Part shown: positions 43,598 to 63,072 of the stretch, one piece after another
Position numbering within the stretch: the stretch's first letter is position 1
Layout of the letters: every line of letters starts with the position of its first letter
Assembly: GCA_947478845.1 (NCBI GenBank)
Contig: CANJXC010000001.1
Span: 124,001 to 188,000 of the forward strand
Reading direction: 5' to 3'
Source: Spirochaetales bacterium
GTDB taxonomy: Bacteria > Spirochaetota > Spirochaetia > JABEVK01
DNA length: 64,000 bases
Position numbers and translations under genes: made by a program
Notes under the pieces: generated by a model
What the model was told of the DNA's origin: nothing
What the model saw: the letters and a program-made list of their open reading frames with translations, nothing else
The model's database searches: none

Positions 43598-44011
43598 TCA
43601 GTCTTTAGCAAGAACTCGACGAAACTCGTCAGGTGTGACGATGCGGAACGGAACGGCTCCTTAGTATTCCAGAAGGTCAGCGTCTCCGGTGACCAGGAAC
43701 TCACCTTCGCCGGCGGCCGCGGTTTGGAGGAAGACTTGATCGTTGGGGTCGCGACAGGGTTCGAGGTGCACCCCTCCAACCCCTGACACCGTTTCGCAGT
43801 ATGGCAGGACTTCTTCGAGGAGTGCCTTCTGCTCGTCAGAACTCAGTTGAAACTTGGGGTAAGCGAGCACCCGCAGCAACTCTTTGGCGGTCGCCGAACT
43901 GACAAGTGGCGTTGTAGAACCCGATTTCCAAGCCTCTCGCAACCAACTCCAGCTCGCTCGGCTGAAGACAAGGGCTGAGATCAAAGTACTGGTGTCGAGT
44001 ACGACCTTCAC
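43598..44011 (-). pseudogene. PIN-domain toxin gene interrupted by an in-frame TAA
   Basis: From GTG at 44011 the gene encodes 116 residues of a PIN ribonuclease: VVLDTSTLISALVF (first acidic residue), ATAKELLRVLAYPKF, DPNDQVFLQTAAAGEGEFLVTGDADLLEY. It then meets TAA (43661-43663). The same frame continues for 19 codons with the family's usual end FRIVTPDEFRRVLAKD to TGA at 43598. All catalytic acids lie before the stop, so a shortened product might still act, but it lacks the last strand. The antitoxin stop overlaps the start (GTGA). Confidence 0.82.
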
Positions 44012-44229
44012 TGTGGCCTTCGCGCCCAAGACACGGCATCCTGAATGTCCTTTTCCGTGATTCCCAGTTCGTCCAGTTTGGTCCGAACCTGTGCGGAAGC
44101 GTCTGGATTGACTGGCGTCAGGACTATGCTGCCACCCTCACGGCGGACGTCGAAGTAGGAACTTGAGAACGCGGAGGCTACGGCCTTGGGAATCGTGATC
44201 TGGTTCTTGCTAGTCATCTTGGCAACCAT
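44008..44229 (-). CDS. AbrB/SpoVT-type antitoxin of the PIN module
   Basis: 73 residues: MTSKNQITIPKAVASAF is the swapped-hairpin AbrB DNA-binding start, followed by YFDVRREGGSIVLTPV and a helical C-terminal part (KLDELGITEKDIQDAVSWAR) that would wrap the PIN partner. ATG at 44229 has GAGGTGG six bases upstream. It overlaps the PIN gene by four bases, the usual antitoxin-toxin order. The antitoxin looks intact while its toxin carries a nonsense codon. Confidence 0.85.
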   Translation of the reverse strand: MVAKMTSKNQITIPKAVASAFSSSYFDVRREGGSIVLTPVNPDASAQVRTKLDELGITEKDIQDAVSWARRPQ

Positions 44230-44284: not shown

Positions 44285-45034
44285 TCAGGTCGACTGGGGC
44301 CGCGCGAGAATCTCGCGGATCACCTTGTGGGTCAGGTCCTGAAGGTTCTCAACTATTCCGGGGATAGCGCCGCCGTCTCGTAGGTACAGCCTTCGGTTCA
44401 CCTCAATCATGATCGACAGCACCCGCGACTCGGTATCCAGGAACTCCAGAGGTACCGTAGAACCGGCATAGGGCCTGTCCAGTTCCACCGAGAGGCCCTC
44501 TGCTGCTTAGACGGACCTCACGGCATCGGTCAACCATGCGGGCGTGTGGCGGCCTTGGGTGCCAAGGCAGATGTCAGGCCGCTCAGGGTTTTGGTCTTCC
44601 TCGCGGAGAAAGGGCATTGCGGAGAAGGAGTGGCCATCGAAGAGGCAGCAGGTTCCAGTGGATTCCATCTTGGTGCGCACCAACTGGGTCAGCTTGGAAT
44701 GGTAGGGCCGGTAGAAGTCCCGAAGGACAATCTCTTTCCACTCGCGTTCTTCGCGAAAGTTGAGGCCCTCGTCTGTCTTGGTGTAGTAGAAGCCCATGCC
44801 CTTGGCGGCCATCGGTTCCAGGTCGTCAGGAACGAACCGCTCGACGTCGCAGAACACCCTCGAGAACTGCGCCTGCACCGAGTCGATACCTTCGACGTGG
44901 AAGATGCGTTCGGTGTACCAGTCGGTGAGCTTGTCGACTTTTCCCGCGACGAGCTCGGGTCGATAGAAGCCCTCGCGGAAGGGAAAGTGCGTTGAGGCGT
45001 GTGGGATGTGGAAGAGGAAGCTCTCGGGTGTCAC
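44285..45034 (-). pseudogene. N-formylglutamate-amidohydrolase-like gene, copy 1, with nonsense codon
   Basis: GTG at 45034 opens a product with FHIPHASTHFP (metal-binding His region), DWYTERIF, RVFCDVERF, YRPYHSKLTQLV and FDGHSFSAMP, the layout of the HutG/N-formylglutamate amidohydrolase family. After 175 residues the frame hits TAA at 44507-44509, exactly where copy 2 has TAC for Tyr. It then continues as ELDRPYAGSTVPLEFLD and SIMIEVNRRLYLRDGG to 44285. One substitution thus splits an otherwise whole gene. It overlaps the upstream unknown gene as GTGA and belongs to that three-gene unit. Confidence 0.8.
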
Positions 45035-46507: not shown

Positions 46508-46526
46508 AGTATACAATTCGTATACT
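46508..46526. promoter_or_regulatory. Inverted repeat AGTATAC-AATTC-GTATACT after hepT
   Basis: Perfect seven-base arms overlapping the hepT stop codon region. It resembles the GTATA-type inverted repeat that follows mazF at 42824-42846. Confidence 0.4.
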
Positions 46527-46861
46527 CAAAGCTCACCAAGAATCTCTGCTAACTGGATGCGAAGTTTCGGAATCCGAGTCACGGCGACATCCCAGACAAT
46601 GGCGTAGTCGACGGAAAAATAGCCATGGATCAGCTTGTCTCTCATGCCCGCTATGCCTCGCCAGTCAATATCTCGATGCTGAAGAGTGAACTCATTGGAT
46701 AGTTGCTTGACCGCCTCACCCATGATTTCAAGGCTACGAGCATAGGCACGCTTGAGCACATCATCAACAAGAAACGCAGCGCGATCGGTTCGGGCTGTTT
46801 GGGTCTCGAGAAACCTAACCTCATCAAGGACATGACGTAGGAGTTCGAGGTCAGAGTGCAA
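46526..46861 (-). CDS. hepT: HepT-like HEPN ribonuclease toxin
   Basis: DUF86/HEPN family, 111 residues, all-helical. The RNase motif R-x4-H appears as RDKLIHGYF near residue 73-81, preceded by ARSLEIMGEAVKQLS, which is the family signature. In HepT-MntA pairs the toxin is a tRNA/RNA-cleaving HEPN dimer that MntA silences by adenylylating the tyrosine next to the motif (here HGYF). The TTG start at 46861 overlaps the mntA end by 11 bases. Intact by all visible features. Confidence 0.9.
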   Translation of the reverse strand: MHSDLELLRHVLDEVRFLETQTARTDRAAFLVDDVLKRAYARSLEIMGEAVKQLSNEFTLQHRDIDWRGIAGMRDKLIHGYFSVDYAIVWDVAVTRIPKLRIQLAEILGEL

Positions 46862-47153
46862 GGTACTCGACCTCTCGCAGAATGTGAGGCCCCAGGTAGG
46901 GACTGAGCGAATCTCGAGTCACGAGGTCAACCTTTCTTCCGAGTTGGTCTTCGAGGTAGTAGGCCAGCCCGATGAAATTGTCAAAGCTTTTTTGATCTGG
47001 CTGGAACTCGACAAGCAGATCGATGTCGCTTTTGTCGGTCTCACGCCCTTGAGCGAAGGACCCAAAAAGACCGAGGGTCGTCACGCCAAAGCTCGAGATG
47101 GAACCACGATTCTCCCGGAGGAACTGGAAAATTTCGCGCTTGTGACTGACCAT
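46851..47153 (-). CDS. mntA: MntA-like nucleotidyltransferase antitoxin
   Basis: Minimal nucleotidyltransferase of 100 residues with the GSFAQGRETDKSDIDLLVEF signature (GSx10DxD), followed by FDNFIGLAYYLEDQLGRKVDLVTRDSL. It would transfer AMP groups to the HepT tyrosine and so neutralise it. The ATG at 47153 has no Shine-Dalgarno sequence but stands 7 nt after TATAGT (47160-47165, with GTGACC 17 nt further at 47183-47188), so the module mRNA is probably leaderless. Confidence 0.9.
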   Translation of the reverse strand: MVSHKREIFQFLRENRGSISSFGVTTLGLFGSFAQGRETDKSDIDLLVEFQPDQKSFDNFIGLAYYLEDQLGRKVDLVTRDSLSPYLGPHILREVEYLAL

Positions 47154-47241: not shown

Positions 47242-47860
47242 CTACGGCAGGTGTAAGTCGTCCGGGCCCCCGAGGATTATCGGCGGGTACCAGGCCGTGT
47301 TCTCGCGCACCCACGCACCCTGTGCTTTGCGAAGCACCTTCTTGGTCAAGTCTTGGAGGCGCTCAAGGGACCCGGGGATGGCACCACCGTCCCGCAGGTA
47401 CAACCGGCGGTTCACCTCGATCATGATCGAAAGTACCCGAGGTTCGGCGTCTAGGAACTCCAGCGGAACCATAGAGCCTGCATAGGGCCTGTCCAGCTCC
47501 ACCGAGAGTCCGGCTGCTGCGTAGACGGACCTCACGGCATCGGTCAACCATGCGGGCGTGTGGCGGCCTTGGGTGCCAAGGCAGATGTCAGGCCGCTCAG
47601 GGTTTTGGTCTTCCTCGCGGAGAAAGGGCATTGCGGAGAACGAGTGGCCATCGATGAGGCAGCAGAGTCCAGTAACCTCGAGCTTATGGCGAACCAACTC
47701 GGTGAGCCGGGCATGATGAGGGCGGTAGAAATCGCGCAGAACTATTTCTTTCCACCGACCTAGTTGGCGAAACTCCACGCCTTGGTCGGTCTTAGTGCAG
47801 TAAAACCCCACCCCTTTTGCCGCCATCGGCTCAAGAGCATCGGGAAAAAGGAACAGAAAA
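47242..47860 (-). pseudogene. N-formylglutamate-amidohydrolase-like gene, copy 2, N-terminally truncated
   Basis: The frame carries FPDALEPMAAKGVGFYCTK, RPHHARLTELVRHKLE, DGHSFSAMPFLREEDQ, LDRPYAGSMVPLEFL, SIMIEVNRRLYLRDGG and a C-terminal extension ending GGPDDLHLP. The first 70 residues of the family, with the HxPH metal-binding region seen in copy 1, are missing, and upstream sequence diverges abruptly near 47850. From the first ATG (47826) 194 residues could be made, but without the metal site. It follows the metK-like gene by 30-60 bases and was perhaps the last gene of that operon. Confidence 0.75.
47522..47654. repeat. 119-bp identical block shared by the two amidohydrolase-like copies
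   Basis: 47522-47640 is identical base for base to 44508-44626, and after one mismatch identity continues to 47654/44640. Outside this block the two genes differ at many positions, so the block was exchanged recently, by gene conversion or recombination. Confidence 0.85.
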
Positions 47861-47890: not shown

Positions 47891-48946
47891 TCACAGTTCT
47901 AACTCCGATTGGTTCCACGGCAAGTTCGAGCCCCAGAAGTGCGTCCCCAGCCCCAAATCCTGAGCAATGCTCGAGGTCGGGAAACGGCCCCGCATCGCAT
48001 CAAACTCAAACCATTGGTCGGCAAACTTGTTTCCCCGCCCGCGCGAGCGCCACGAGACCTCCAGCGGTCGCGGCACATTGGGAGCCCAGCAGGTCTGGAT
48101 CAAACACTCGCTGGCTCCCGTTTGTACTGCGTGGATGGCCGCCCGGCGCGCGTTGTAGGCTGCCAACCGGTCAATGTGCGTCAGGTGCTTTCCCGATAGC
48201 GCTCCACCACCCAGCGGCACCCGGGGACCGTAGTAGTCCATCACCAGCTTGCGTCCCGTCTGGCCGTTGTCGAAATCGCTGCCGCCGCCCTCCAAGGGTC
48301 CGTTCGGGTTCACGAGGGTTTCGACGTCGCTCCAGGGCGTCTTCCAGCGGTCGTCGGCTTGTCGCACGCCCTCCCACGCTCCGGCGATGGCCCGCAACAC
48401 CTCGCCGCAGAACCCGAGGAACGACGCACCGACCGGCTGTTGCACTGTCAGAAGCACCATTTCCAAATGCCACGCAGCACGGAGGCCGGTGCCCACCTCC
48501 CGAATCTGAATGAGCAGCTTGCCGTCGGGCCCGAAAGACGCCAGGGCCTCACGGAAGCTGTGCGCCAGAAAGTGTTCGGGGGACAGCCAGCGTGTCTTAG
48601 CGTCGTAGCCCGCCCACCCGATTACGATGGCCTGATCGTTGACGTGGTGTGTCCATTCGCGCCCGTCGCGCTCGTAGACGCACAGGTGGTCTGCGAAGCG
48701 GTATCGTCCCATCTCAACCCCGATTGCTACCCCCGCCGCTCGGATCACGTCCTCCACCGACCTCGGCAAGGGCGACCGTAGAGCAAGTGCCCCCGACAGC
48801 CATATCTGGTCGCACCAGATTCCCGCTTCGACCTGACCATAGGCATCGTCATCGACTTTGTACGCTTCGGCCAGCAAAGCATCGACGAACTGATCGCAAA
48901 GCTTATCGGGGTGTCCACCAAGCACCATCTCGCTCCAGCGCTTCAT
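47891..48946 (-). CDS. Divergent S-adenosylmethionine-synthetase-like protein
   Basis: 351 residues with all three MetK regions: GGHPDKLCDQFVDALLAEA (ATP/Met site), NDQAIVIGWAGYDAK, FGPDGKLLIQI, DNGQTGRKLVMDYYGPRVPLGGGALSGK and the C-terminal FWGSNLPW. The conserved GEITT-like loop is replaced by SGALALRS, and the Asp after SGK is His (SGKHLT), so metal binding or substrate choice may differ. It is shorter than housekeeping MetK. ATG at 48946 overlaps the VWA gene (ATGA). As last gene of a MoxR-VWA operon it is unlikely to be the cell's only SAM synthetase; it may supply SAM to a local modification system or make a SAM-like product. Confidence 0.85.
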   Translation of the reverse strand: MKRWSEMVLGGHPDKLCDQFVDALLAEAYKVDDDAYGQVEAGIWCDQIWLSGALALRSPLPRSVEDVIRAAGVAIGVEMGRYRFADHLCVYERDGREWTHHVNDQAIVIGWAGYDAKTRWLSPEHFLAHSFREALASFGPDGKLLIQIREVGTGLRAAWHLEMVLLTVQQPVGASFLGFCGEVLRAIAGAWEGVRQADDRWKTPWSDVETLVNPNGPLEGGGSDFDNGQTGRKLVMDYYGPRVPLGGGALSGKHLTHIDRLAAYNARRAAIHAVQTGASECLIQTCWAPNVPRPLEVSWRSRGRGNKFADQWFEFDAMRGRFPTSSIAQDLGLGTHFWGSNLPWNQSELEL

Positions 48947-50253
48947 CGGGGAACCTCCTTCAACTTCGTCCAGGGCAAACCAGCGTTCTGTATGGCCTGC
49001 GGATCTCCGGCGGCGGAAATCAAGACGTGAAGTCTCGTGTGCTGACACTTGCGCACTAGGGCGGGCTCGACCTTCTCTACGTAACCGTCGGTGACGATGA
49101 CGGCCGCCTCGGGTTTGGTGAGCGCCAGGTGCCTGAGCACGCAGGCCAAACTGGTTCCTCCCGAGGTCGACGTCTTGAGTGCACCCTCCTGGATCACCGC
49201 CGGGGCAACCTCATCACTGAACGCCCAGAAAGGCCTGCGGATGTGTTTCGAAAGCGAGCCCAGGAGACCCGCCAACGCCGACAGCTCGGCATTCATCGAA
49301 CCGGAAACGTCGAGGAACAACTGGGCACTCCCCTTCGGCTTTGACCTCGCCCCCTCCCAACGTGCTTCCGGTAGGAAGGGCGACCACAGCGAGCGAACGA
49401 ACGCCCGACGGTCTGTGGTCGACAACACGGGTAGGAGGTAAGGCGTGGGCACGACCGCCGATTGCCTGGACCTTCGATCGGGAGTCACATGCTGTTCCAG
49501 AAGCCGGGCGAAAGCACGCCGCCAGTCGCGGCGGGTTGGTGGATCGATCTTGTGCAGGGCCTCGTACGGGTCGGCACCCACGCCGCGCTCCCGGGGACTC
49601 CGCCAGATGCCCCCACCGTTCATCTCTTTGAGGGCGCCATCGAGCGCGTCCGCCAGTTTTTCGGGAAGGCCTTGGCCGAGCTCGGTATGGTTTCCCAAGA
49701 GCTTGCCCGAACCTTTGGCGGGCATTTTCGCGCTCGCAAGGTCTCCCGCCAGTGAGGCAATGTCGTCGGCGACAAGGTAGCCGAGGTAAAGCGACTTCCA
49801 AAGGTTTGTCTGGCTCGAGGTGCGGTAGTCGCGCAACTCGACGTCGACAGGAGGACGAAGCAGCTTCATTGGCCACAACTGGCTCGCGTAGTACCGACCC
49901 ATCATAGAACTGTAGGCAGGCCCAAGTTGGCGGTGGATAATGGCGTTGATAACAGCATCGCATGCAAGGTGGCGGGTCGCGTTGTAGGGCCCGGTTTCGT
50001 CGGTGTGGCGAAGCAGAACGTGAAGAAACTCGTGGCACATCAGGGCTTTAATGTGCTCATCGGTGTGGCAGTGTAACTCGAGGAATCCTAGGTTTACTTT
50101 CAAAACCGGCTCGACCTCACAGGTTACGGCCAGTGTGGGCACGGAGTCGGTGAACTCAACGGCAAGGATGCGCAGCAGGCTGCGGACGGCAAAGGGATTT
50201 TCGTCGATGAGCTCCAACAACAGACTTTGAAACAATTCGGTGGTGACGTTCAT
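48943..50253 (-). CDS. Metallopeptidase-VWA fusion protein (DUF2201/COG3864 type)
   Basis: 436 residues. The N-terminal domain carries a zinc-protease motif His74-Glu75-Phe-Leu-His78 in LMCHEFLHVLLRHTDET. The C-terminal domain (about 305-420) is von Willebrand factor A-like with the MIDAS motif DVSGSM at 315-320 and TDGY near 389-392. Partners of MoxR ATPases usually have such VWA domains; together they remodel or load metal into target proteins. ATG at 50253 overlaps the upstream gene (ATGA). It looks intact. A second protein of the same type lies at 63145. Confidence 0.9.
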   Translation of the reverse strand: MNVTTELFQSLLLELIDENPFAVRSLLRILAVEFTDSVPTLAVTCEVEPVLKVNLGFLELHCHTDEHIKALMCHEFLHVLLRHTDETGPYNATRHLACDAVINAIIHRQLGPAYSSMMGRYYASQLWPMKLLRPPVDVELRDYRTSSQTNLWKSLYLGYLVADDIASLAGDLASAKMPAKGSGKLLGNHTELGQGLPEKLADALDGALKEMNGGGIWRSPRERGVGADPYEALHKIDPPTRRDWRRAFARLLEQHVTPDRRSRQSAVVPTPYLLPVLSTTDRRAFVRSLWSPFLPEARWEGARSKPKGSAQLFLDVSGSMNAELSALAGLLGSLSKHIRRPFWAFSDEVAPAVIQEGALKTSTSGGTSLACVLRHLALTKPEAAVIVTDGYVEKVEPALVRKCQHTRLHVLISAAGDPQAIQNAGLPWTKLKEVPR

Positions 50254-50711
50254 GCGTAGAACCCCTCCGGTCGGTACAGGTCGAGCTTACGGCCTAAGCT
50301 GGCATCCGTCCACAGCACGGGGCGGTACGGGTCATACAGGAAAGCCGTGCACAGTCCAAGCCACAAGGCTTGCTCCAGTACCGCCTCAGCCGGCGCGTGG
50401 AGGGCCGAGAGATAGGTTGGTGGGGCATCGGTGGGACGCGCAATGAGCCTAGTGACTGGGAACTCGAACCGGCCGACAAGCTCCTGCGGTTGTTCCAGAC
50501 CGACGTGCTTGAGGAGTTTGAGCAGAAACGAAACTTTTCCTGTGACGCCCTCGAAGTCGAGGCCGACCTGAAGGACCAGAGGGCAGCGGACAGAACCCTT
50601 TTCCTTCCCCAGCAGGGACCCTTTGAGGGGCGCTTCGCGGGATCGCACCATCGGTCCGCCGAAGTTGGCCCACAGTGTCTCGCGCTTGGCTTCGATCCCC
50701 TGCGCCCTCAT
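50250..50711 (-). CDS. Protein of unknown function in the MoxR-VWA-MetK operon
   Basis: 153 residues from ATG at 50711 (ATGA overlap with the MoxR gene) to a stop that overlaps the VWA gene. Beta-rich N-terminal half (KETLWANFGG-like start, SVRCPLVLQVGLDFEGVTGKVSF) and helical C-terminal half (AEAVLEQALWLGLCTAFLYDP) with the ending LGRKLDLYRPEGFYA. No membrane helix or known motif. The strict overlaps on both sides imply stoichiometric production with the ATPase and the VWA protein, so it is probably an adaptor or target of the MoxR machine. Confidence 0.65.
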   Translation of the reverse strand: MRAQGIEAKRETLWANFGGPMVRSREAPLKGSLLGKEKGSVRCPLVLQVGLDFEGVTGKVSFLLKLLKHVGLEQPQELVGRFEFPVTRLIARPTDAPPTYLSALHAPAEAVLEQALWLGLCTAFLYDPYRPVLWTDASLGRKLDLYRPEGFYA

Positions 50712-52084
50712 CGCGACCTCAGCAGGTTGACGCAAGCCTCGAGTTGCTCCTCGACTGCTTCAGGCTTGACGAGCACCACATGCTCGAGCACACACCAACC
50801 GAAGAACTGGTTGGCGCGCTCAGCCCTGGCGCCCGAGAGTCCTGACAGGACCGTGGCGTAGCGAGCGAAATCGCGCTGGGGGCTAGGCGTCTGGTTTGCT
50901 GGTTCACTCCACTTGAGCGTCCCCTCGTAGCGCAGGATGGGGCCGGCAACCTTCGCCAGATCGTTCACCCCCTCGGCACCGATGGGCAGTTTGCCTTCTA
51001 CGGCCTTGGGGAACACCGCGAAGGCGAACACAGCCGCCAGTTCTTTGGGGGCACTGGCCAGAAGCTGCGCTACGGCCTGAGTGCCTTGGTCAGGGTCTCT
51101 GCAGCTTTCTAGCCATAGCGCCAAGCGGTCCGAGACCTTGGGAAGGCTGAGGAACTGATGCACCCAGGCGTTCGGTGAGCGCTGAACCTCGTCCCAAGCT
51201 GCACGGTGAGCGGCTTTCACCTTCTCCCGGGTCGGAGGTGCGCCCCAGGCACCGTGCGGGAGCGAGCTCTCGAGCACCTGGAGGAACTGCTTGTCCGCAG
51301 ACTTTCCCGTGACAATACTGGCAGCCAGCAGGCTGCGGCTCAACAGACGGGCACGACGCGGGGAAACCCGGATCGAGGCCGTGTTCAGGTGGGTTACGAC
51401 CAGCGCCGAATAGTCCAGGATTAGCGACGGACAGGCTTCCAGCTGGGCCAGGAAGCGGACGCGCCACTCGGCCAAATGGGTCTTCAGGTCACCTCGGTCG
51501 TTGGAGAAGCTTCCCTCACCCGCCGGGTCGGCCACCGCGCGCCGGTCAGCCACCGATAGTTCCCCCCATTCGCCCGCGTTGGCAAACAGGGCAAACCGGT
51601 CCGCCAACGCGGGGTCCAGCGGCTCGGAGCCCGTGTAGGTTTCGGCAGAATCCTCGGGCTCGCAGGGGTTCATGGCGGCCCAGCGGAACCTCAACTTGGT
51701 CAGCGAAATGCCCTGCAGTTTGCGCTCGTGGACCAGGCTGAACAGACGATTCTGGTGTTCGGGCTTGCACCGGCTGATTTCGTCGATCAGTACCGACTCC
51801 GCCTGCCATACGGTGGCGGGAGTCTCCAAGAACTTCACAGCAGTGTTGTCGGCATCGGGGTACGGGAACCCCACCAGATCGTCGAAGCTGATCATACTTG
51901 CGTTGTAGTGGCGATGCTCGAGTTCCAACGCTTCCGAGAGGGAGTTGAGCAAGAAGGTCTTGCCGGTGCCCGACCGACCGATCAGAAGCAACGGATCTTC
52001 GGTGACCAGGGCGGCTAAAATGACGGGTTCCACGGTCTCAAAACCGTAGACACCCAAACGGGTCAGATAGGATTTATGGGCCAT
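50708..52084 (-). CDS. MoxR-family AAA+ ATPase
   Basis: 458 residues. AAA+ module in the first 250: Walker A GRSGTGKT at 36-43, Walker B region ESVLIDEISRCKPEHQNRLF, sensor segment RWAAMNPCEPEDSAETYTGSEPLDPALADRFA with the Arg finger region. The C-terminal 200 residues are helical and specific. MoxR proteins act as chaperones with VWA partners. ATG at 52084 has AGGAGG six bases upstream and the gene opens a four-gene operon (ATPase, unknown, metallopeptidase-VWA, MetK-like) with a structured leader. Confidence 0.9.
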   Translation of the reverse strand: MAHKSYLTRLGVYGFETVEPVILAALVTEDPLLLIGRSGTGKTFLLNSLSEALELEHRHYNASMISFDDLVGFPYPDADNTAVKFLETPATVWQAESVLIDEISRCKPEHQNRLFSLVHERKLQGISLTKLRFRWAAMNPCEPEDSAETYTGSEPLDPALADRFALFANAGEWGELSVADRRAVADPAGEGSFSNDRGDLKTHLAEWRVRFLAQLEACPSLILDYSALVVTHLNTASIRVSPRRARLLSRSLLAASIVTGKSADKQFLQVLESSLPHGAWGAPPTREKVKAAHRAAWDEVQRSPNAWVHQFLSLPKVSDRLALWLESCRDPDQGTQAVAQLLASAPKELAAVFAFAVFPKAVEGKLPIGAEGVNDLAKVAGPILRYEGTLKWSEPANQTPSPQRDFARYATVLSGLSGARAERANQFFGWCVLEHVVLVKPEAVEEQLEACVNLLRSR

Positions 52085-52193
52085 AGGAGGCCTCCTGTTT
52101 AGCAGCGGCCTCGGGAGAGGCCAGATCCTTTCGCCAAGCGAAAGGCCCCCCGCCCTGCAAGTCGGATAAATCGACGGGGTTAAACAGATTATA
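52085..52193 (-). promoter_or_regulatory. Promoter and structured leader of the MoxR operon
   Basis: TATAAT at 52188-52193 with the extended TG-C in front; no good -35. The leader of about 97 nt can form CCTTTCGC-TTG-GCGAAAGG (52127-52145), then GGCCTC-TCCC-GAGGCC (52107-52122). It ends in the palindrome AGGAGGCCTCCT (52085-52096), whose first half is the ribosome-binding site. The structure could control translation; no known riboswitch class was recognised. Confidence 0.5.
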
Positions 52194-52223: not shown

Positions 52224-52625
52224 TTAGCGCAAGTCAAGTAAGCCTTTCACGAAGCGGTCGTAGGCCAGCTTTCCCTGGATTCGGGTGGTTTGATAACCTT
52301 CCATTTGGTTTTCTTCGTCCTGTGAAACGGTCACCTCAACCGTCAAGCACCCGTCCTCGCAGGCGACTTCGATGATACATCCGCTCGCGTGGTACGGCCC
52401 GCCGGGATCGCGATGGACGTCAGCTTCAAGATCCCATTCGTCGCATAACCTAAGTAAATCTCGGGTGACAGAATTGCCCACGTAATCTGCCTGTGGCTTC
52501 CATTCGTCGGTTTTAGGATCTTTGAGCAGCAGGTCGGAGGCAGACTTGCCGGTATATGGACGATGAGGTTCTTCCTCCAGCTCAAGTTCCCAGAAACTAT
52601 GCAGGTAGTCTTCTACCAGGCTCAT
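52224..52625 (-). CDS. Small acidic protein of unknown function
   Basis: 133 residues from ATG at 52625 with AAGGAG upstream. Sequence: VEDYLHSFWELELEEEPHRPYTGKSA, then DEWDLEADVHRDPGGPYHASGCIIEV, CEDGCLTVEVTVSQDEENQ, IQGKLAYDRFVKGLLDL. Strongly acidic, alpha/beta, cytoplasmic. No family recognised. It lies between an 84-residue unknown gene and the promoter of the MoxR operon on the same strand, and could be regulated with either. Confidence 0.6.
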   Translation of the reverse strand: MSLVEDYLHSFWELELEEEPHRPYTGKSASDLLLKDPKTDEWKPQADYVGNSVTRDLLRLCDEWDLEADVHRDPGGPYHASGCIIEVACEDGCLTVEVTVSQDEENQMEGYQTTRIQGKLAYDRFVKGLLDLR

Positions 52626-52670
52626 CCTATTTCTCCTTGTCACGATTTAATTCTGCCTTAGCTCGCGCTG

Positions 52671-52925
52671 CTAGAAGAGTTCATCTTCTGACGCTACGGT
52701 TTCCCGCTCGGGCCACTGGCCGGGGTATCTATCCCACTTCGGTAGCCCTTGAAACTCCCGTTCGCGAAGTTCGCCAGCGGTTCCTAGATAGACGCCGTGC
52801 TCAGTCCAAACCTTTAGGTGGTCTGTCTCGGAGCATTTGTGAAACTCTGGAACCATTTCTGAGAGCTCGAGGTTGTCATCGAGAACGACGCGGAATTGGA
52901 TGAGGTATTCGGGTCTCTTGGTCAT
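52671..52925 (-). CDS. Small protein of unknown function
   Basis: 84 residues from ATG at 52925 with an excellent CAGGAGG seven bases upstream. Beta-rich start YLIQFRVVLDDNLELSEMVPEFHKC, then HLKVWTEHGVYLGTAG and an acidic end. No motif known. The TGCAC-N5-GTGCA inverted repeat at 52960-52974 lies in its promoter region. Probably co-transcribed with the next small acidic gene 45 bases downstream. Confidence 0.6.
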   Translation of the reverse strand: MTKRPEYLIQFRVVLDDNLELSEMVPEFHKCSETDHLKVWTEHGVYLGTAGELREREFQGLPKWDRYPGQWPERETVASEDELF

Positions 52926-53434: not shown

Positions 53435-56173
53435 CTACCACTTCTGCACCAGAGTCTCGAGCTGGTCCTGCGAGGTCAGCACGTTTGTGCATGATTCAAA
53501 GTCGACTGGCTCGGGCCTACGTTCATACCGAAGCTCGAACGGATGTACAGTCGGAACCAGATCTATTCGATTCTGGGCTTCCTTTTCCTCGTGGCGGGCG
53601 ACCAACACCCAGATGTCTTCCAGAGTGTCCGGCACTTGGCCAAAGAGCTCGTGGATGGTCTGCTGACGCGTTGCCAACAAGCTGTGGACCCGGTCCTCCA
53701 CGGACCCGCGATAGCGAAGGTTCAAGATGTAGACTTCATCACGCAATTGTCCAATTCTCTGAATCCTCCCCTTTCGCTGCTCAAGTCGAGTTGGGTTCCA
53801 CGGCAAGTCCACATTGATCAGTGTGCCGAGGCGCTGCAAGTTTAGTCCCTCCGACGCTGCATCGGTGCCGACCACTAGCCGGATTTCACCACGCCTAACC
53901 TTCATTTTGATGGGTTCCCGGTCGATTCGCTTGTGCTCGTTTCCCATTAGGATCATCGAACGACCAGAGCCTGCGTAAATCGCTATGGGCTCGTCAGGTA
54001 ACTTGGCAGCGAGCTTCTCGGCGATCCAAAGGGCCGTGTCATAGAACTGGCTGAATAATATGCAACCGAGTTCCAGCCAAGGTTCTGTCTTCTGCGATTC
54101 GGACAATGGGGCGCCGGAAAGGAGAACACTTTCGATCTCAGCGTATTTGGGGTCCGGGATCGAACTTGCCTGGAGCATCTGGACAAAGCGGCGCAAGGAT
54201 TCGAGTTCGAGTTCGGAGAAAGGCGCCAACGAGGAGGACGGTGCTTCTTCCTCGTTGTCTTCCTCTTCTGAATCTATGGACTCAAGGTCACTGCCGAGCA
54301 TTTTCAGTCCGGTGCTCAGGCCGGCAGCAATTGAGCTCCCGAAGCGTCGCAAGATAATTGTCTTGAGAAACCCTGAGTTGAGCCCGGGGCGCTTTCCTAA
54401 CTGCACACAGAAGGCATCCGCAGCATCGTAGGCGTCCTGCAAATAGGGTGGCAACGTGAGCGCCTCAGTGTCGCCTTCACCGAATAGCTTGACCCGGACA
54501 GGCTTCAAGAAGGGCTCTCCAGTTGAAGGGTCGACCGTTTCCTCCAAGTACTCCCGAGTGCGACGAACAATGTGTCGTATATAGGGGTTATGCTGCTGGA
54601 ACAGCCTCCTTGCCAGGCCGGTCGCGATTCGAAGGTCCATCGCATTCAGCTTTTCAAAGTCGGTCGAGTTCCCTTGTACCTGCCCAGGCTTGTACCCGAG
54701 GGCCTTTCGCACCCGAGCAAAGTCGGGATGCTCACTGTCAGGCGGGAGAGGGTTCATCATCCAAGGCAACAACTCGATGAGCGAGTTTGGCGAACTCTGG
54801 CGCCCTATGATGAGCTCAAGGGAAAGCTCGGGTTGTGTCCTCCAGAAGCTGAATCGGGAACCCAGCACACGTTCGTCACCTTGACCAAGCGCGTCGAGTA
54901 GGTCGAAAGCTTCCAGAGCGTTTAGCTGGACTGGTGTCGCGGTACCAAGCATGAGGGACTTCGTCCTGGTGCTCATCGTTCGAATGAAGCTCATCAGGTT
55001 GTTGTAGGTTGCGGCATTGCCCGTGCCACTCTTTCTGCGGGCTCGGTGGGCTTCATCAAAGATGACGCACTCATATCGAAGTAGAAGTAATTTGGGCGCT
55101 GCCGACGAGCCGCTTGTGATGAGGCCCGACGATACGATTCCGACGCGTCGTGGGCAGTCAAGGATTCCTTCAGCACCGAGGTCGGCATGGATGACACCTC
55201 GCTCGTCGATCCACTGTTTGCCTGTCCAGCGCGCGGAAGGCATTGCAAGAAGATCCCAAAGTTCAGCCTGCCACTGTTCCATCAGTGTCTTGGGAACGAC
55301 AATCAGGATTGGTTTGTCACCCGAGAGAGCCATGAGTTTTGCTGCGAGGCCCAACTGCACGGTCTTGCCAAGCCCGACTTGGTCTGCAAGCACGTAGCGA
55401 GCACCACCAGCCAAGTGTTCCCGGAACGCGAGGTTGATGAAGTACTTCTGATGTGCCCAAAGGCCGTTCTCGCGGCGGTAGACCGGGAGCTCCACGATGG
55501 GTGAGCCAGGGTCAGGATTGCCGGCCGCAGCCCAAACCTTCGGGGACTCAATGGTGGTTCTCTTTGAGAGGCGCTTAATGTCTTCGACTACGGACTCAGC
55601 AAGTGGGCGAGCCAATGGGTTGGCCCAGAGCGCGTCGAACTCGTCCTGTACCCATTTGAGTCCTTCGAGCGAGTGATCAACCCAGACGAGTTCATAGTTC
55701 ATAGTCCAGGCGGTCCTGCTTTCATTTGCACTTCCCAAGAAGCAAACCGGGGGCTGGTCCTTTCGGTAGATTGCTCCCGCCTTACCGTGCACGAGGCCGA
55801 ACACGTCGTCTGGCAACACCCGAACCTCGAGACGACCCTTGGCTAAGAAGTCATGGAGTCTGGCCAAGCGTTGCTTGAGAGGGGTGTCAATCGAGGGAGG
55901 AAGGCTGGTGCACCAATCGCGCCACATGGCCCACTGCGCAGCTTTGGCGGTTGCAACATCGATGGACTGAAGACCGCTGTTACAGATTACCCTTATGACG
56001 GCGGGGTCGCCGGGACTCCACGGCATTTCCTCCAGCTGTTCGCCGGCTACCTCCAGCATCGAAGAAGAGAAGTAACCTGCGATTCGGTCGTACTTGGATG
56101 CCCCCGATAGCAACTCGCGAATCATTGGGCCTAAGGGAGTCAGGCGAGACGTGAACCGCTCAAGTTCTGACAC
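53435..56173 (-). CDS. PLD-nuclease-like/SNF2 helicase of the defence cassette
   Basis: 912 residues. The N-terminal 170 residues form a phospholipase-D-like domain: SKYDRIAGYFSSSMLEVAG and the HxK motif His129-x-Lys131 in GLVHGKAGAIYRK followed by GSANES; only one HKD motif is seen. Then a SNF2/RapA-type helicase: Walker A ADQVGLGKTVQ (264 onward), DEAH at 373-376, GTATPVQLN, and C-terminal motifs VGTDAASEGLNLQRLGTLINVDLPWNPTRLEQRKGRIQRIGQ (cited in part). GTG at 56173 overlaps the methylase stop by one base. Such helicases are routine partners of DUF499 and DUF1156 genes. Confidence 0.93.
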   Translation of the reverse strand: MSELERFTSRLTPLGPMIRELLSGASKYDRIAGYFSSSMLEVAGEQLEEMPWSPGDPAVIRVICNSGLQSIDVATAKAAQWAMWRDWCTSLPPSIDTPLKQRLARLHDFLAKGRLEVRVLPDDVFGLVHGKAGAIYRKDQPPVCFLGSANESRTAWTMNYELVWVDHSLEGLKWVQDEFDALWANPLARPLAESVVEDIKRLSKRTTIESPKVWAAAGNPDPGSPIVELPVYRRENGLWAHQKYFINLAFREHLAGGARYVLADQVGLGKTVQLGLAAKLMALSGDKPILIVVPKTLMEQWQAELWDLLAMPSARWTGKQWIDERGVIHADLGAEGILDCPRRVGIVSSGLITSGSSAAPKLLLLRYECVIFDEAHRARRKSGTGNAATYNNLMSFIRTMSTRTKSLMLGTATPVQLNALEAFDLLDALGQGDERVLGSRFSFWRTQPELSLELIIGRQSSPNSLIELLPWMMNPLPPDSEHPDFARVRKALGYKPGQVQGNSTDFEKLNAMDLRIATGLARRLFQQHNPYIRHIVRRTREYLEETVDPSTGEPFLKPVRVKLFGEGDTEALTLPPYLQDAYDAADAFCVQLGKRPGLNSGFLKTIILRRFGSSIAAGLSTGLKMLGSDLESIDSEEEDNEEEAPSSSLAPFSELELESLRRFVQMLQASSIPDPKYAEIESVLLSGAPLSESQKTEPWLELGCILFSQFYDTALWIAEKLAAKLPDEPIAIYAGSGRSMILMGNEHKRIDREPIKMKVRRGEIRLVVGTDAASEGLNLQRLGTLINVDLPWNPTRLEQRKGRIQRIGQLRDEVYILNLRYRGSVEDRVHSLLATRQQTIHELFGQVPDTLEDIWVLVARHEEKEAQNRIDLVPTVHPFELRYERRPEPVDFESCTNVLTSQDQLETLVQKW

Positions 56174-59100
56174 TAGCGGCCCCAGTTTTCGAGACGAGCA
56201 CGGAACACCCGTGCCGCCTCGGAGTCAGACTTCCAGTGCGTCATCGAGGCACTGGGAGTCTCCACCAGGAATCCCAGAAGGTTCAGAATGCTCTTTTTGA
56301 GGTCGTCAAACTGGGTGCCAGGGTACCTGTCAATCAGCCACTTGAGGGCGGGCTCAGGATTATTCTGTTCAGACGCAGTCTGATACACGGCATAGAGGAC
56401 GTTCCGCAGAAGGCTCGCCCCAAGGCTGCCCGAATCTAGGTTTCGACCTCGAAGTTCGGATGGTGTCTTCAAGCGAGCCTCGTTGGCCGCCTCGCTCTGG
56501 AGCAAATCGCGGTACGAAGTCACCCCAAATCCGCGTGCGAACTCGGCATAAACACCAGTCCTCTTCTCGCCGTGGCTTTCTACGTCGATCCCCTTCAGGT
56601 ACAACCGTTCTTCGGGACCGCTGCGTTTCCAGACGCTGTTTTCGACATGGGCTGGAACCAGAAAATCGCTGGCCTCTCGGAGAGCATGGTCGATGACTCC
56701 CTTGACGATGCCATTCGGGTCGGGGCGAAGCCCACGGGCAAGCTCCCGACTGACGTCGAGCTCGCTGATGCTTTCGTAGCTTGTAATAACTCGGAGGGCG
56801 GCAGCGTAGGCCGCCAACTGGTAGTCAGAGTCACTGAAGTTAGGGCTCTCGCGATCATCGAGCGCCAACATGGTCTTGAGTTGGTGTCGAACCTCCAACT
56901 GGACCTCGGGTCGTATGTCACTTAGGTCACCCTTCACACCGTTTTGCCGCTTGCGGAGTACTAGGAATACTGTGCCTTGAACAAAGTTCCCTTGACGCAT
57001 TTCGCCTGAGGTTTCTGTGGCGATGGTCCAAGCTTGAATCACGTGAAGCCCGGCTGCCCAGAGGAGTAGCGTAAGGTCGGCCCAAACTTGGGCGTCCTGC
57101 TGGGTGAACATGACGATCTGAAGGCCGTTATCGGGCATATGGCTGACGAGGTTGGCGTAGCAGCGATGGAGCACCGCCGCGAACGATTCACCGGCAAGCT
57201 CGACCGCGAGGGCTCGCTTGGAATCACCATACCAACCCGGGAACCCGAGAGGTAGGAGGCGATCAACCCATGCCAGGAAAAGTTCGGAAAACTCTGCATA
57301 GGGAACCATGTCGCCATACCCCGGATCTGTGATCCACAGGTCAGCTTCGCCCGACATTTGGGCCGCGTCACCCAGACTAATCGAACTGGAACCGATAACG
57401 GGATTTGTGTCCATGTTGATGTTCGTAATGGACTCAAGTTGACGTGAAGCACGACAAACCCAATTGGGAAAAGGCGTGGGCAGAAGTGGGCCATAGAACA
57501 CTTGGGCTGGGGCGCCACCTCTCGAGTTCCATCGGCACAACTTCGCTGACCAATCGGCGAGTTTCATTTGCGAAAGTAGCAAAGCAGTGAACTTGGCCGG
57601 GTCGGTAGAACGCTGCATTACATGACTGGCAAATAGACCATTGAGGAGGAGCTGACGAGGCATGTACAGATGGTGCCAATGGGTAAAGCCACGTGCGTTG
57701 GTTGGGCGGTTGATAGCCTCGCCACGCTCGATGGGACGTTCAGGCACCATTCCTTGCTGCTGCCAACCGTCGAAACGTTCGGAAAGCAAACTCTCGACTA
57801 GTTTTTCTCGATCAAGGTCGCTCTGCGACGGCTCGCGGTAGACTCGGCTTGGCTGAGTGGAACAAGCCTCCAGACCGGCACGGACGGTCGCATCAAGGCG
57901 AACCACCAGAGCCTGCCGGGAACGGGAATACGCGTCTTTGGCAACAGCGTCCGAGTCAGGGTTCGAATCGAAAGATTCTTCGAGCTCAACAAGCTTGGCT
58001 GCGCTTGAAGCCCAACCTGAAGTCCGCGCGCTCTGAACTAGGACTCGATTCGACGGACTCAGCAAGTCCAGAACGGAGTCGATGGCAGTCGCAATGGTGT
58101 CAGGGTTCCAACCCTCAAGCGACTTCCCAGCCTTGAGTACCTGTTCTTTGGCTAAGAGACCGACCAAGTCGGGCAAGGTCCAACGGATGCAGAACAACCG
58201 CTCTTGGTACACATCGGCGGGCCGAGGTCGCCATTCTGACTTCTCCCACATTCGCAGTCCGTGCTGCCCCCGTAGCGATACTCCTGAAACTGTCTGGCGC
58301 ATCGAAGGTGGTACGAATTCGCCGTCGATATTGTAAGGTGACCGTACTCCATCGTCTGAGGTTTTTTCCTGCGCAGCGTGCGCCAATTCCTCGTCGCTGA
58401 CACCCTGCTTCACGTGAAGCTGGATGGTCTTGGAATGGTGATTCGGCTCCATCTCAACAATGGCGCCCTCGCCTGGGTCGATTGCAAACGACGGTAGCAT
58501 GGGAACCCGCCAGCCCGTCGTCGGGTCCAGAACTTCGTTGCAGTACAGGTAGACATCGGCCTCCCAACCCCATTCGTTCTGCTCGATCTTCCAGGCCTTC
58601 ACCTGCTTCCGCAGTTCGTTGTAGACCTCGCGTTGGGCTTGCTTCGCCCGCGACATAGCGTCTTGAGAGCCACCAATTAGGCCCAGTGCGCCGTGATTCA
58701 TCAACGTAGACGTCGGGTTCAAATCATTCGCCAGCACATCACAGCCGATCCGCGCGGCTTCGTACGGAATTGAGCCGCCACCCGCGAACGCGTCGCCGAC
58801 TCGCGGTATATGCCCAAACTTCTTCTTGCCCAATTCTTGAACCAGCTCGGCTACAGTGTTGGCGCTTGTTCCCAAATGCGCGTTAATCTCTTTCCAACTA
58901 CTTTCGCTAGGCCCTGAGATTTCCTCTGGGCGAAGGCAACACTTGAGCCGTTCATCGTAGCTCATACGAAGGAAGGCCCGCTTGAGATAGCTCTGTTTAC
59001 GTTCGTCGCTCAGCCCGCGAACCCATCCGACGCGACCATTTGTCTCGGCCAGAGCCTCCAGCTGTTCAGTGGGTGTCAGATTTGGAGCGACCTCCTTCGC

Positions 59101-59367
59101 GGTCATTCCTTTGAAGCGGCTCCACATCCCTTCGTCGTCCATAGTCAGCGACTTCAAGAAGACTTCGCGGTCCTTTTTGGGGTCGTCAGTGGCCGGCATC
59201 AACAACCCAAGGATCAAGGCACGAACGAGAACTAGCGGCTTCCTACCGTGCCATTTGCCGAGCGAGGCCAGAGTTTGACTGTCACCCGATTTGCGTTCTT
59301 TGTAGCTCTCCTTGGAAAGCTTGCTCACGGGGAATTGGACCTCGATGAAGGAGGGGTTGTTGTTCAC
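56173..59367 (-). CDS. DUF1156-type adenine-specific DNA methylase with DPGY motif
   Basis: 1064 residues from GTG at 59367, which overlaps the DUF3780 stop (GTGA). N-terminal DUF1156 region IEVQFPVSKLSKESYKERK and KWHGRKPLVLVRALILGLL. SAM-binding motif I is GDAFAGGGSIPYEAARIGCDVLANDLNP near 191-218. The catalytic motif IV is Asp681-Pro-Gly-Tyr684 in WITDPGYGDMVPYAEFSELF, where the family has DPPY. It probably methylates adenine in host DNA as self mark, or acts as part of a modification-dependent defence; the Gly substitution puts activity in question. Confidence 0.92.
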   Translation of the reverse strand: MNNNPSFIEVQFPVSKLSKESYKERKSGDSQTLASLGKWHGRKPLVLVRALILGLLMPATDDPKKDREVFLKSLTMDDEGMWSRFKGMTAKEVAPNLTPTEQLEALAETNGRVGWVRGLSDERKQSYLKRAFLRMSYDERLKCCLRPEEISGPSESSWKEINAHLGTSANTVAELVQELGKKKFGHIPRVGDAFAGGGSIPYEAARIGCDVLANDLNPTSTLMNHGALGLIGGSQDAMSRAKQAQREVYNELRKQVKAWKIEQNEWGWEADVYLYCNEVLDPTTGWRVPMLPSFAIDPGEGAIVEMEPNHHSKTIQLHVKQGVSDEELAHAAQEKTSDDGVRSPYNIDGEFVPPSMRQTVSGVSLRGQHGLRMWEKSEWRPRPADVYQERLFCIRWTLPDLVGLLAKEQVLKAGKSLEGWNPDTIATAIDSVLDLLSPSNRVLVQSARTSGWASSAAKLVELEESFDSNPDSDAVAKDAYSRSRQALVVRLDATVRAGLEACSTQPSRVYREPSQSDLDREKLVESLLSERFDGWQQQGMVPERPIERGEAINRPTNARGFTHWHHLYMPRQLLLNGLFASHVMQRSTDPAKFTALLLSQMKLADWSAKLCRWNSRGGAPAQVFYGPLLPTPFPNWVCRASRQLESITNINMDTNPVIGSSSISLGDAAQMSGEADLWITDPGYGDMVPYAEFSELFLAWVDRLLPLGFPGWYGDSKRALAVELAGESFAAVLHRCYANLVSHMPDNGLQIVMFTQQDAQVWADLTLLLWAAGLHVIQAWTIATETSGEMRQGNFVQGTVFLVLRKRQNGVKGDLSDIRPEVQLEVRHQLKTMLALDDRESPNFSDSDYQLAAYAAALRVITSYESISELDVSRELARGLRPDPNGIVKGVIDHALREASDFLVPAHVENSVWKRSGPEERLYLKGIDVESHGEKRTGVYAEFARGFGVTSYRDLLQSEAANEARLKTPSELRGRNLDSGSLGASLLRNVLYAVYQTASEQNNPEPALKWLIDRYPGTQFDDLKKSILNLLGFLVETPSASMTHWKSDSEAARVFRARLENWGR

Positions 59368-59990
59368 TTGTCTTCTCCAAACAGCCACCCGGTAGAACCT
59401 GCAATTCCCATCTTTGGTGGTACGCGCGCCTCATCTACCGCTATTCGTGGCACAGCGACTTCCTCAACGGCGTGGCGATAGTCGGCGGCGCCGGGAGCAC
59501 TGCTCTCTGAAAAGGCAATACGGATGGCCTTGCGCCAGCCCCGCACTGAGGAAGGTGGCTCCGCGTTGCCACTCGAAGCCTTTGCCATCCCGTAGAGCCA
59601 CCATCGTTCCTCGGGGGCGAGGCCAAGCCAGTTGGCAAGGACATTGGGAAGATCCGTTGGATCAACGTCCTCGGAAGCCCAGGCCAACAGCGTGAGCTCT
59701 TTTCCCAGATAGGGGGCTAACAAGTGCTCTCCCAGCGCCCACTTTGCCGTCTTCTTCTTCGAGTCCTGCAACCGTCGGTTGAAGTGACTCTGAACAGCCT
59801 CAGCGACCCGTCCCCAACGGTATGTATCCATAACCGCTCGAACCTGGGGCGAAAGCTGCTGTGTGGCTTCGCCCGTTGTGAACCGTTCCTCGACGCGAAC
59901 GTCGTTGCTGTCGACAACCACGGCAAAATGGTACGTCGAGTCCCGGCCGTCAAAGCCAAAGTTCGGGACCTTTGACGAGTCGTTAGCCAC
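59364..59990 (-). CDS. DUF3780-family protein
   Basis: 208 residues that match the DUF3780 pattern as I recall it: NFGFDGRDSTYHFAVVV at the start, AVQSHFNRRLQDSKKKTAKW, LGKELTLLAWASEDVDPTDLPNVLANWLGLAPEERWWLYGM (cited in part) and GWRKAIRIAFSE. The family has no established activity and is known mainly as a small component between DUF499 and DUF1156 genes in defence islands. GTG at 59990 overlaps the DUF499 stop by eight bases, and its own stop overlaps the methylase start, so all are produced together. Confidence 0.88.
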   Translation of the reverse strand: MANDSSKVPNFGFDGRDSTYHFAVVVDSNDVRVEERFTTGEATQQLSPQVRAVMDTYRWGRVAEAVQSHFNRRLQDSKKKTAKWALGEHLLAPYLGKELTLLAWASEDVDPTDLPNVLANWLGLAPEERWWLYGMAKASSGNAEPPSSVRGWRKAIRIAFSESSAPGAADYRHAVEEVAVPRIAVDEARVPPKMGIAGSTGWLFGEDK

Positions 59991-62900: not shown

Positions 62901-63072
62901 GCCGCTTGAAGGCTTCAGGGAGAAGCGTTCTCATCGCGTCCGTTACGTAATTCTCTTCAAAGAAAGAACTCGCCGAAATTGTTGAAAGGTCGGCAAGGTT
63001 CCATACGGTATCAGTTCTCGAGATATCAAATACCGATTCGCGTGGTGTGAGCGCATCAAAGAGTGTTTTCAT
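59983..63072 (-). CDS. DUF499-family AAA+ ATPase
   Basis: 1029 residues. The N-terminal ATPase has Walker A GGGKTHS (76-82) in FHLSQSMGGGKTHSLVALG, Walker B TLVLLDELPLYF near 168, and PFHPSIRDLYARV and FQQTRALIRIM motifs typical of DUF499 (COG1483). The C-terminal third is beta-rich with KPADWERAGGFSADSTQETHRFL and the end GRDLEDFSNGLPLVVVEGEV. Predicted motor or switch of the defence cassette. ATG at 63072 has no Shine-Dalgarno sequence and lies 11 nt after a -10 box. First gene of the cassette. Confidence 0.92.
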   Translation of the reverse strand: MKTLFDALTPRESVFDISRTDTVWNLADLSTISASSFFEENYVTDAMRTLLPEAFKRLEQRADSGSGIFHLSQSMGGGKTHSLVALGLLALNQGLREGVLEQCGYKAGPLGAVRVVAFSGGSEPTPHGLWGYLAEKLGLSDRLSACYSPLRNPTESEWVALLSGQPTLVLLDELPLYFAGCKGIEIGTTTLDVLTALALRTLVQAVNSNKLPNVCLVITDLAGTAWKSGASALESLADAEKETAKVAITLSPVNLASDELYHIMRKRLFNALPSDSEVAEVAEAYVSALGTAQHMGLVADVPASQRSRMIEAYPFHPSIRDLYARVRENDGFQQTRALIRIMRLVVRQLWESKTAKERYVIGAHDFDLLSSAMKTEINQINPTFDNAIAKDIQESGGSATAQQIDASGSHDALDVAKLVLLSSLSTAMSPTLGLGRSEIAFYLTEPHRDLSNLKKAIDALQETAWYLHALPGSKLVFRNTENLVAKVEDYVRNTTIDMREQEVRRQLLALFAPSVRDVYDSVMALTSLDQVVLEPDKVKLVIYKPTPESRQAVGEFFTQQVYKNRVAFLTSEAEPYLTALERAAYLSSIERVANEPAFAGLNASDPQKKQADDLRSTYKSRFFQALSSGFCKLSYPYAKGLFDIEIADSVEVRSDNGVAYRGESSIKTKLMEMAKFLDYSSLDQLLPKLEKIWPENQKSIEWNELKRAAATNPGYVWHHPKSLEHLKDEMFNKEAWRPSGPGWIEKGPFAKAPARVEIDRLSVDKDTGRAVLRVRPVPKNAKVFHRIDGEANTSSHPLTEFEFETGDLKHSFFATDPTGVHPDGPTVAWILTPIVRYSLPLNNGVRHVQLVALPSGEVQYTADGSSLESNALKYTTPFRASAGATIQARAIGHGQKGEMISFVMPKEDEAVVIDPKKPADWERAGGFSADSTQETHRFLDLAKKCQVKFGGMVRLTAAKGGTTAELNTINGSFLAEDFDKSIDDLRKFVPDANVTLNVDILHFPSGRDLEDFSNGLPLVVVEGEVTQRG

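Follow-up and report, generated by a model that had tools for sequence, protein, structure and literature searches.

A scattered four-gene operon joins a MoxR ATPase and a zincin-VWA protein to a MetK homologue with a rebuilt methionine pocket

The window, a stretch of 64,000 nucleotides from a Spirochaetales bacterium (assembly GCA_947478845.1, contig CANJXC010000001.1, positions 124,001 to 188,000), carries a cassette of four intact genes on the minus strand. They encode a MoxR-family ATPase, a small protein, a protein combining a zincin metallopeptidase domain with a VWA domain (zincin-VWA), and a divergent homologue of S-adenosylmethionine (SAM) synthetase, or MetK; below, divergent MetK denotes this last protein and its counterparts at other cassette loci. 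The genes and their junctions, in window coordinates, are:

50708..52084, minus strand: MoxR-family AAA+ ATPase, 458 aa; Walker A GRSGTGKT, Walker B LIDE; Pfam AAA_5/AAA_3
50708..50711, minus strand: ATGA stop/start overlap between MoxR and the small protein, CGATGAGG
50250..50711, minus strand: cassette small protein, 153 aa; no Pfam or PDB relative
50250..50253, minus strand: ATGA stop/start overlap between the small protein and zincin-VWA, GCATGAAC
48943..50253, minus strand: zincin-VWA, with an HExxH metallopeptidase domain (H74-E75-x-x-H78) and a VWA domain with intact MIDAS (D315-x-S-x-S, T388-D389-G)
48943..48946, minus strand: ATGA stop/start overlap between zincin-VWA and the divergent MetK, CGATGAAG; the 4-base overlap is also found in 35 of 46 other loci
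47891..48946, minus strand: divergent MetK, 351 aa; Pfam S-adenosylmethionine synthetase N and C domains

Gene starts (MoxR 52084, small protein 50711, zincin-VWA 50253, divergent MetK 48946) were set from a reading of both strands together with homologue alignment. All three junctions are ATGA, in keeping with the original prediction, made from the sequence alone, that overlaps of this kind join the four genes.

Using an alignment of MoxR as bait, we scanned approximately 85,000 species genomes and recovered 78 MoxR-family loci from about 16 named phyla, mostly in metagenome-assembled genomes; the count is a lower bound, because the scan uses exact seed patterns, and the organism names of metagenome bins are approximate. 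The cassette small protein is present at 60 loci. Where at least 500 bp lie beyond the VWA gene of a small-protein locus (53 loci), the divergent MetK follows zincin-VWA directly at 46, and at 35 of these the two genes share an ATGA overlap, with start codons picked by script near the position predicted from homologues. At four of the seven exceptions, in Opitutae and similar organisms, a MetK with a canonical site lies 11-31 bp upstream of MoxR; the other three have no MetK. Two loci outside these seven (L059, L086) combine an upstream canonical MetK, additional to the housekeeping metK, with the divergent MetK downstream. Dozens of unrelated loci share the gene order, which is far beyond chance. 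Moreover, inter-locus distances of MoxR, VWA and the divergent MetK are correlated (r of 0.91, 0.78 and 0.72), and none of 2000 permutations gave values as high. Carriage is sporadic: the cassette MoxR occurs in 1 of 198 Spirochaetota genomes, and a class-wide search with the VWA protein found one other genome among 395, which holds a MoxR, a small protein and a VWA gene at a contig end. In one member of the Spirochaetota (G245), a deletion has fused the beginning of MoxR with the end of the divergent MetK, leaving a decaying cassette.

A metK family search of the window genome (2.99 Mb, in a 22-contig assembly) found a full-strength metK elsewhere (2.2e-70) in addition to the window copy (3.8e-19), which rules out the divergent MetK as the sole metK of this genome. 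Likewise, a PF02773 search detected a canonical metK in 44 of 50 carrier genomes; no strong one turned up in the other six, which are for the most part metagenome assemblies and potentially incomplete. The same search, which is independent of MoxR, traced extra divergent MetKs in these carriers either to second cassettes of a remote type (G595, G597) or to a broken cassette (G631); a single genome can carry two different cassettes. Altogether, MoxR, the small protein, zincin-VWA and the divergent MetK form a stand-alone, horizontally scattered operon; the four genes are inherited together, in addition to a housekeeping metK. The expectation of a unit ending in a MetK-like enzyme has thus held, with a conserved neighbourhood, and none of the three circumstances named beforehand as fatal to it was encountered: the homologues are not mostly stand-alone housekeeping enzymes, the genome does have a second metK, and the neighbourhoods are not variable.

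The divergent MetK of the window matches the C and N domains of the Pfam SAM synthetase family (1.3e-18 and 3.6e-08), scores 101.9 bits against a TIGR01034 equivalog cut-off of 309.4 and shares approximately 20-25% identity with canonical MetK. A phylogenetic tree groups 43 cassette sequences in a single deep clade (SH-aLRT 99), distinct from the canonical MetKs of bacteria and phages, which answers the question, raised in the original prediction, of whether the MetK homologue forms a separate clade. Six MetKs from remote-type cassettes form another clade, and long branches leave its relation to the first open. The AlphaFold model (pLDDT 92, pTM 0.90) matches structures of methionine adenosyltransferase (MAT), the enzyme class of MetK, at TM scores of approximately 0.8-0.87, and closely matches the MetK chain of the SAM-lyase complex 8bb1, so that the modelled protein has the MAT fold.

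A survey of 2963 MATs places E56, Q99 and K270 among twelve conserved catalytic residues (PMC7271947). E56 contacts the amino group of methionine and Q99 and K270 its carboxyl group (given as E55/E70, Q98/Q113 and K269/K289; PMC3853416, PMC6850014). In an alignment of 44 divergent MetKs, read in E. coli UniProt numbering, H15, D17, E43, D119, D164, K166, D239, R245 and K246 are invariant and K266 is present in all 43 sequences with that column; the set binding ATP, metal and ribose, including D272, is invariant or nearly so. In contrast, E56 is replaced in every sequence (G in 28, A in 10), Q99 is variable and retained in only six, and K270 is replaced in 43 of 43, by His in 41. I303 is Pro in 43/43, Q242 is found in 44/44 and P254 is likewise a fixed new residue. 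Leu replaces the adenine-stacking F231 in 28 of the 44. In the window copy the replacements are E56 to A, Q99 to Y, K270 to H and I303 to P. Judged from this alignment, the divergent MetK retains nine of the twelve MAT catalytic residues, those for triphosphate, metal and ribose, and the three lost are the methionine holders; the pocket that takes up methionine at its amino and carboxyl ends has been rebuilt. Since H270, P303, Q242 and P254 are fixed, a new substrate is favoured over decay. The eight MetKs of remote-type cassettes show another pattern, with Arg at 56, Pro at 303, Lys at 245 and a retained K270.

Several details of the original prediction can be placed here. The motifs GGHPDK, GRK and SGK are kept, as it stated, and of the GEITT-like loop the glutamate is lost, being A in the window copy. 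The Asp after SGK is indeed absent from the window copy, but it is common in the divergent MetK family, and the telling change of this region is K270 to His rather than the missing Asp.

MoxR matches AAA/MoxR-type models only, with bpMoxR well under its cut-off, and its Walker motifs are conserved in 76 homologues. In 67 homologues of zincin-VWA, the HExxH and MIDAS residues are invariant or nearly so; its matches to DUF2201_N/DUF2201 are weak and under the Pfam cut-offs. In the small protein, an N-terminal tail with little order bears a conserved N-x-G-G-P-x-S-R-x-R motif and is followed by a compact alpha/beta C-terminal domain with LxLGLCT...YDPxRPVLWT...LxRxLEL. Its model has a confident fold (pLDDT 88) and gave no Foldseek match. 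A Pfam search with 56 homologues gave no VMAP, iSTAND, beta-propeller or FtsH-type match, although a remote iSTAND could escape detection in such a search. A conserved motif within a disordered tail would suit an adaptor, a substrate or a cleavage site. The small protein of remote-type cassettes has a comparable tail (LHNMSxPPR), and its profile similarity to the cassette small protein is weak (hhalign E 0.004, probability 8.5%).

Upstream of the cassette, at a distance of 1.4 kb, is a complete Type-2 BREX-related (BR) system under the definition of Rakesh and Krishnan 2026 (PMC12839542). The neighbouring features are:

53435-63072, minus strand, as the cassette: complete Type-2 BR set (PADLOC), comprising DUF499, DUF3780, DUF1156 methyltransferase and PLD/HKD helicase
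52224-52925: two small open reading frames (ORFs) that separate the BR helicase from MoxR, encoding 139 and 84 aa; neither matches a known family or was seen at another cassette
47242-47826: N-truncated remnant of Pfam FGase (N-formylglutamate-amidohydrolase family)
44285-45034: second degenerate FGase copy, with an internal stop

The DUF499, DUF3780, DUF1156 and helicase genes are absent from all other cassette loci, and we therefore rejected the cassette as a component of the Type-2 BR system; because cassette flanks are not conserved, the BR set is best seen as a neighbour and not a partner. The truncated amidohydrolase-like gene, once suggested as a possible fifth member, is a real FGase remnant but is not conserved: FGase genes lie near only three other cassette contigs (L060, L061, L084), and the gene is degenerate in the window.

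The same island contains a HepT-like RNase with a nucleotidyltransferase, of toxin-antitoxin type (46526-47153), and a PIN-domain protein with a MazE-like antitoxin (43661-44229). Just upstream of the BR genes, an operon beginning in the window at 63145-63999 and spanning 187145-193862 of the contig (L003:7145-13862) encodes a 974-aa protein with a C-terminal reverse transcriptase (RT), an N6/N4 DNA methylase, a 297-aa protein of unknown function, a second MoxR and a second metallopeptidase-VWA protein (DUF2201). In a genome of a different phylum, RT, methylase, MoxR and VWA genes lie in the same order directly upstream of its cassette (L095, 2543-9375); this is possibly an undescribed RT-based defence operon. 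By our reading, ParA- and replication-protein-like genes lie beyond it in the window genome. The surroundings of the window cassette, that is the BR set, the PIN/MazE-like and HepT pairs and the RT operon, fit a mobile defence island, whereas flanks elsewhere are not consistently of this kind. All-against-all clustering of flanking ORFs gave no family in more than six loci, and that cluster resembles shadow ORFs; a Pfam scan of the 105 nearest cassette neighbours gave at most three of one family (YbjN). Near single cassettes we also noted genes linked to NAD/ADP-ribose or nucleotides (PnuC, Sir2, macro-like, ADP-ribosylglycohydrolase, NUDIX-like and HD-hydrolase; L052, L084, L107, L121, L095, L064, L078, L125), a tendency that is not statistically supported.

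Building on the operon, its linkage, the MAT fold and the residue pattern, we infer the following for assembly, substrate, regulation and biological role. The divergent MetK would no longer be a plain SAM synthetase; a nucleophile without a free alpha-amino-acid end would attack C5' of a nucleoside triphosphate (NTP), and tripolyphosphate would be released. Candidate acceptors would include a residue within a peptide or some other small molecule, giving a nucleosyl compound or a modification as product. MoxR and zincin-VWA would form an ATP-driven remodelling and peptidase machine, for which the small protein, through its disordered N-terminal motif, may serve as adaptor or as a substrate that is remodelled or cleaved; the machine may control the divergent MetK or be controlled by it. 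As the weakest step, the whole cassette could be a conflict module, probably directed against phage, in view of its sporadic occurrence, its position in a defence island here and its kinship with conflict systems or phage chaperones. Phage defence is put forward as a hypothesis. Taken together, this gives the reading that we prefer, if tentatively, since it falls a little short of probable: the cassette would be accessory, the small protein would be the target of MoxR and zincin-VWA, and the divergent MetK would turn its retained NTP-cleaving site on an acceptor other than free methionine. A more specific version, a widespread system whose MAT-fold enzyme moves the 5'-deoxynucleosyl group of an NTP to a non-methionine acceptor, possibly a protein or peptide such as the small partner, as a new modification or signal under control of MoxR and zincin-VWA, is possible but clearly less likely. 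There is a real chance that the chemistry of the enzyme is categorically new. Among the functions first suggested for the MetK homologue, a SAM-like product is the option nearest to the residue evidence.

Several observations weigh against this preferred reading. Five Opitutae-type loci (L091, L094, L096, L106, L124) carry a MetK with an intact methionine site at the position upstream of MoxR described above, and the divergent MetK was not seen at any of them, with the sequence of L124 ending within MoxR and its downstream side not covered. The genomes of the four Opitutae-type exceptions and of L124 hold another strong metK elsewhere, which makes the upstream copy a dedicated additional gene, and the need of the cassette may be ordinary SAM synthesis. 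Of all the evidence, these loci speak most strongly against SAM synthesis having been lost universally. L054, L069 and L089 carry no MetK. The rebuilt pocket could still bind methionine, since Q99 is not essential in human MAT, where Q113A has 76% activity (PMC6850014), and archaeal MATs hold the carboxylate by other residues, including a histidine (PMC3853416). With F231 mostly replaced by Leu, the nucleotide itself is uncertain and may differ. Concerning conflict, plasmid and viral collections contained no cassette and no match to the divergent MetK or the small protein, only one remote MoxR/VWA locus on a viral contig. The cassette proteins gave no specific PADLOC defence-model match beyond weak AAA matches for MoxR, and defence genes are not recurrent beside cassettes, where PADLOC matches are singletons (AbiEi, C5 methylase, RecD-like), counted without a control set.

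MoxR-VWA pairs activate metalloenzymes, and the cassette may accordingly be a maturation chaperone outside conflict, as are NorQ/NorD or CbbQ/CbbO, with the divergent MetK or the second MetK as its client in specialised metabolism. This alternative survives best, though we consider it unlikely: no defence genes or mobile elements recur beside cassettes and most carriers are environmental genomes, but metabolic genes do not recur in the flanks either, chaperones of the NorQ/NorD and CbbQ/CbbO types are without a zincin domain, and two different cassettes can occur in one genome.

A second alternative, somewhat less likely again, is that the divergent MetK is an effector that wastes NTP, with water or a ubiquitous nucleophile as acceptor, and that activation by MoxR and zincin-VWA depletes ATP in an abortive infection. 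The invariance of triphosphate and metal residues alongside the loss of acceptor residues would fit this, as do human MAT mutants at K289 and D258, which have reduced SAM formation and retain tripolyphosphatase activity (PMC6850014). However, the conserved replacements (H270 41/43, P303 43/43, Q242 44/44) look like a defined new substrate and not like simple loss.

It is, thirdly, rather improbable that the divergent MetK is a working SAM synthetase that supplies a defence methyltransferase, here that of the Type-2 BR system, or does so despite phage SAM lyases. The complete BR set 1.4 kb away on the same strand speaks for such a role, as does the SAM lyase of phage T3, which beats BREX through SAM cleavage and MetK binding (PMC11580459); a second, canonical MetK stands in the operon at Opitutae loci, and metK occurs in many phages, in one case a few genes away from an adenine methylase. 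On the other hand, BR genes are missing at other cassette loci, gene-free stretches of approximately 510 bp and 140 bp flank the two ORFs between helicase and MoxR, and E56 and K270 are replaced in 44/44 and 43/43 sequences. The original prediction that the MetK homologue feeds a SAM-dependent modification is consequently unsupported as regards a neighbouring methylation system, BR genes being absent elsewhere and the methionine-binding residues gone; the loss of these residues also weakens, without overturning, the suggestion that it resists SAM-depleting phage enzymes. Finally, a decoy that mimics housekeeping MetK so that MetK-binding phage proteins (e.g., the T3 SAM lyase) trigger MoxR and zincin-VWA would agree with the retained MAT fold, the close match to the MetK chain of 8bb1, the altered substrate site and the BREX-related neighbours in the window, but is very unlikely, as a decoy has no need for about ten nucleotide and metal residues invariant across about 16 phyla, and at approximately 20-25% identity to canonical MetK the interaction surfaces are unlikely to be preserved.

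MAT ranks among the best-conserved enzymes in living organisms, and its activity is normally linked to methionine. If the preferred reading is true, a MAT clade with triphosphate chemistry but without methionine contacts, held in one operon across about 16 phyla, would amount to a natural experiment in novel nucleosyl chemistry, and the cassette points to an undescribed MoxR/metallopeptidase system, possibly related to defence. The original prediction knew of no described system ending in a MetK-like enzyme, and our literature searches, which left most subscription papers and preprints uncovered, likewise found no MoxR/VWA operon with a MetK.

Compared with known systems, the cassette shares parts with several. 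Phage-borne MetKs (Streptococcus phages and others) are, like the divergent MetK, homologues outside the housekeeping context; the one checked, from phi-SsuNJ5, has a canonical methionine site, with no MoxR/VWA in the neighbourhood shown. The Type-2 BR system (PADLOC DUF499/DUF3780/DUF1156_MTase/PLD_Helicase) is an immediate same-strand neighbour in the window but is unlinked to the cassette at any other locus. With SAM synthetase/MAT (TIGR01034, PF00438/02772/02773), the divergent MetK shares the fold and nine of twelve catalytic residues, and differs in its score far under the equivalog cut-off, its rebuilt methionine site, its separate clade and its fixed operon context. MoxR-VWA pairs act as chaperone and co-chaperone (PMC7159879). 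The MoxR and zincin-vWA chaperone pair of jumbo phages (PMC7824862) likewise has a vWA fused to an N-terminal metallopeptidase, but virion assembly has been proposed for it, no MetK or small protein is described, and the cassette is chromosomal. The MoxR-vWA ternary conflict systems (VMAP, iSTAND, beta-propeller and FtsH classes; Kaur et al. 2020, PMC7159879) resemble the cassette in their strict MoxR AAA+/vWA operon, fast-evolving third protein and sporadic spread; the cassette also encodes MoxR and a MIDAS-bearing vWA together. In contrast to these systems, its third protein fits no described class and its gene order is unlike that of VMAP, its vWA protein has a constant N-terminal zincin with the VWA domain C-terminal where theirs have variable C-terminal effectors, and it adds a near-constant fourth gene, which is MetK-like.

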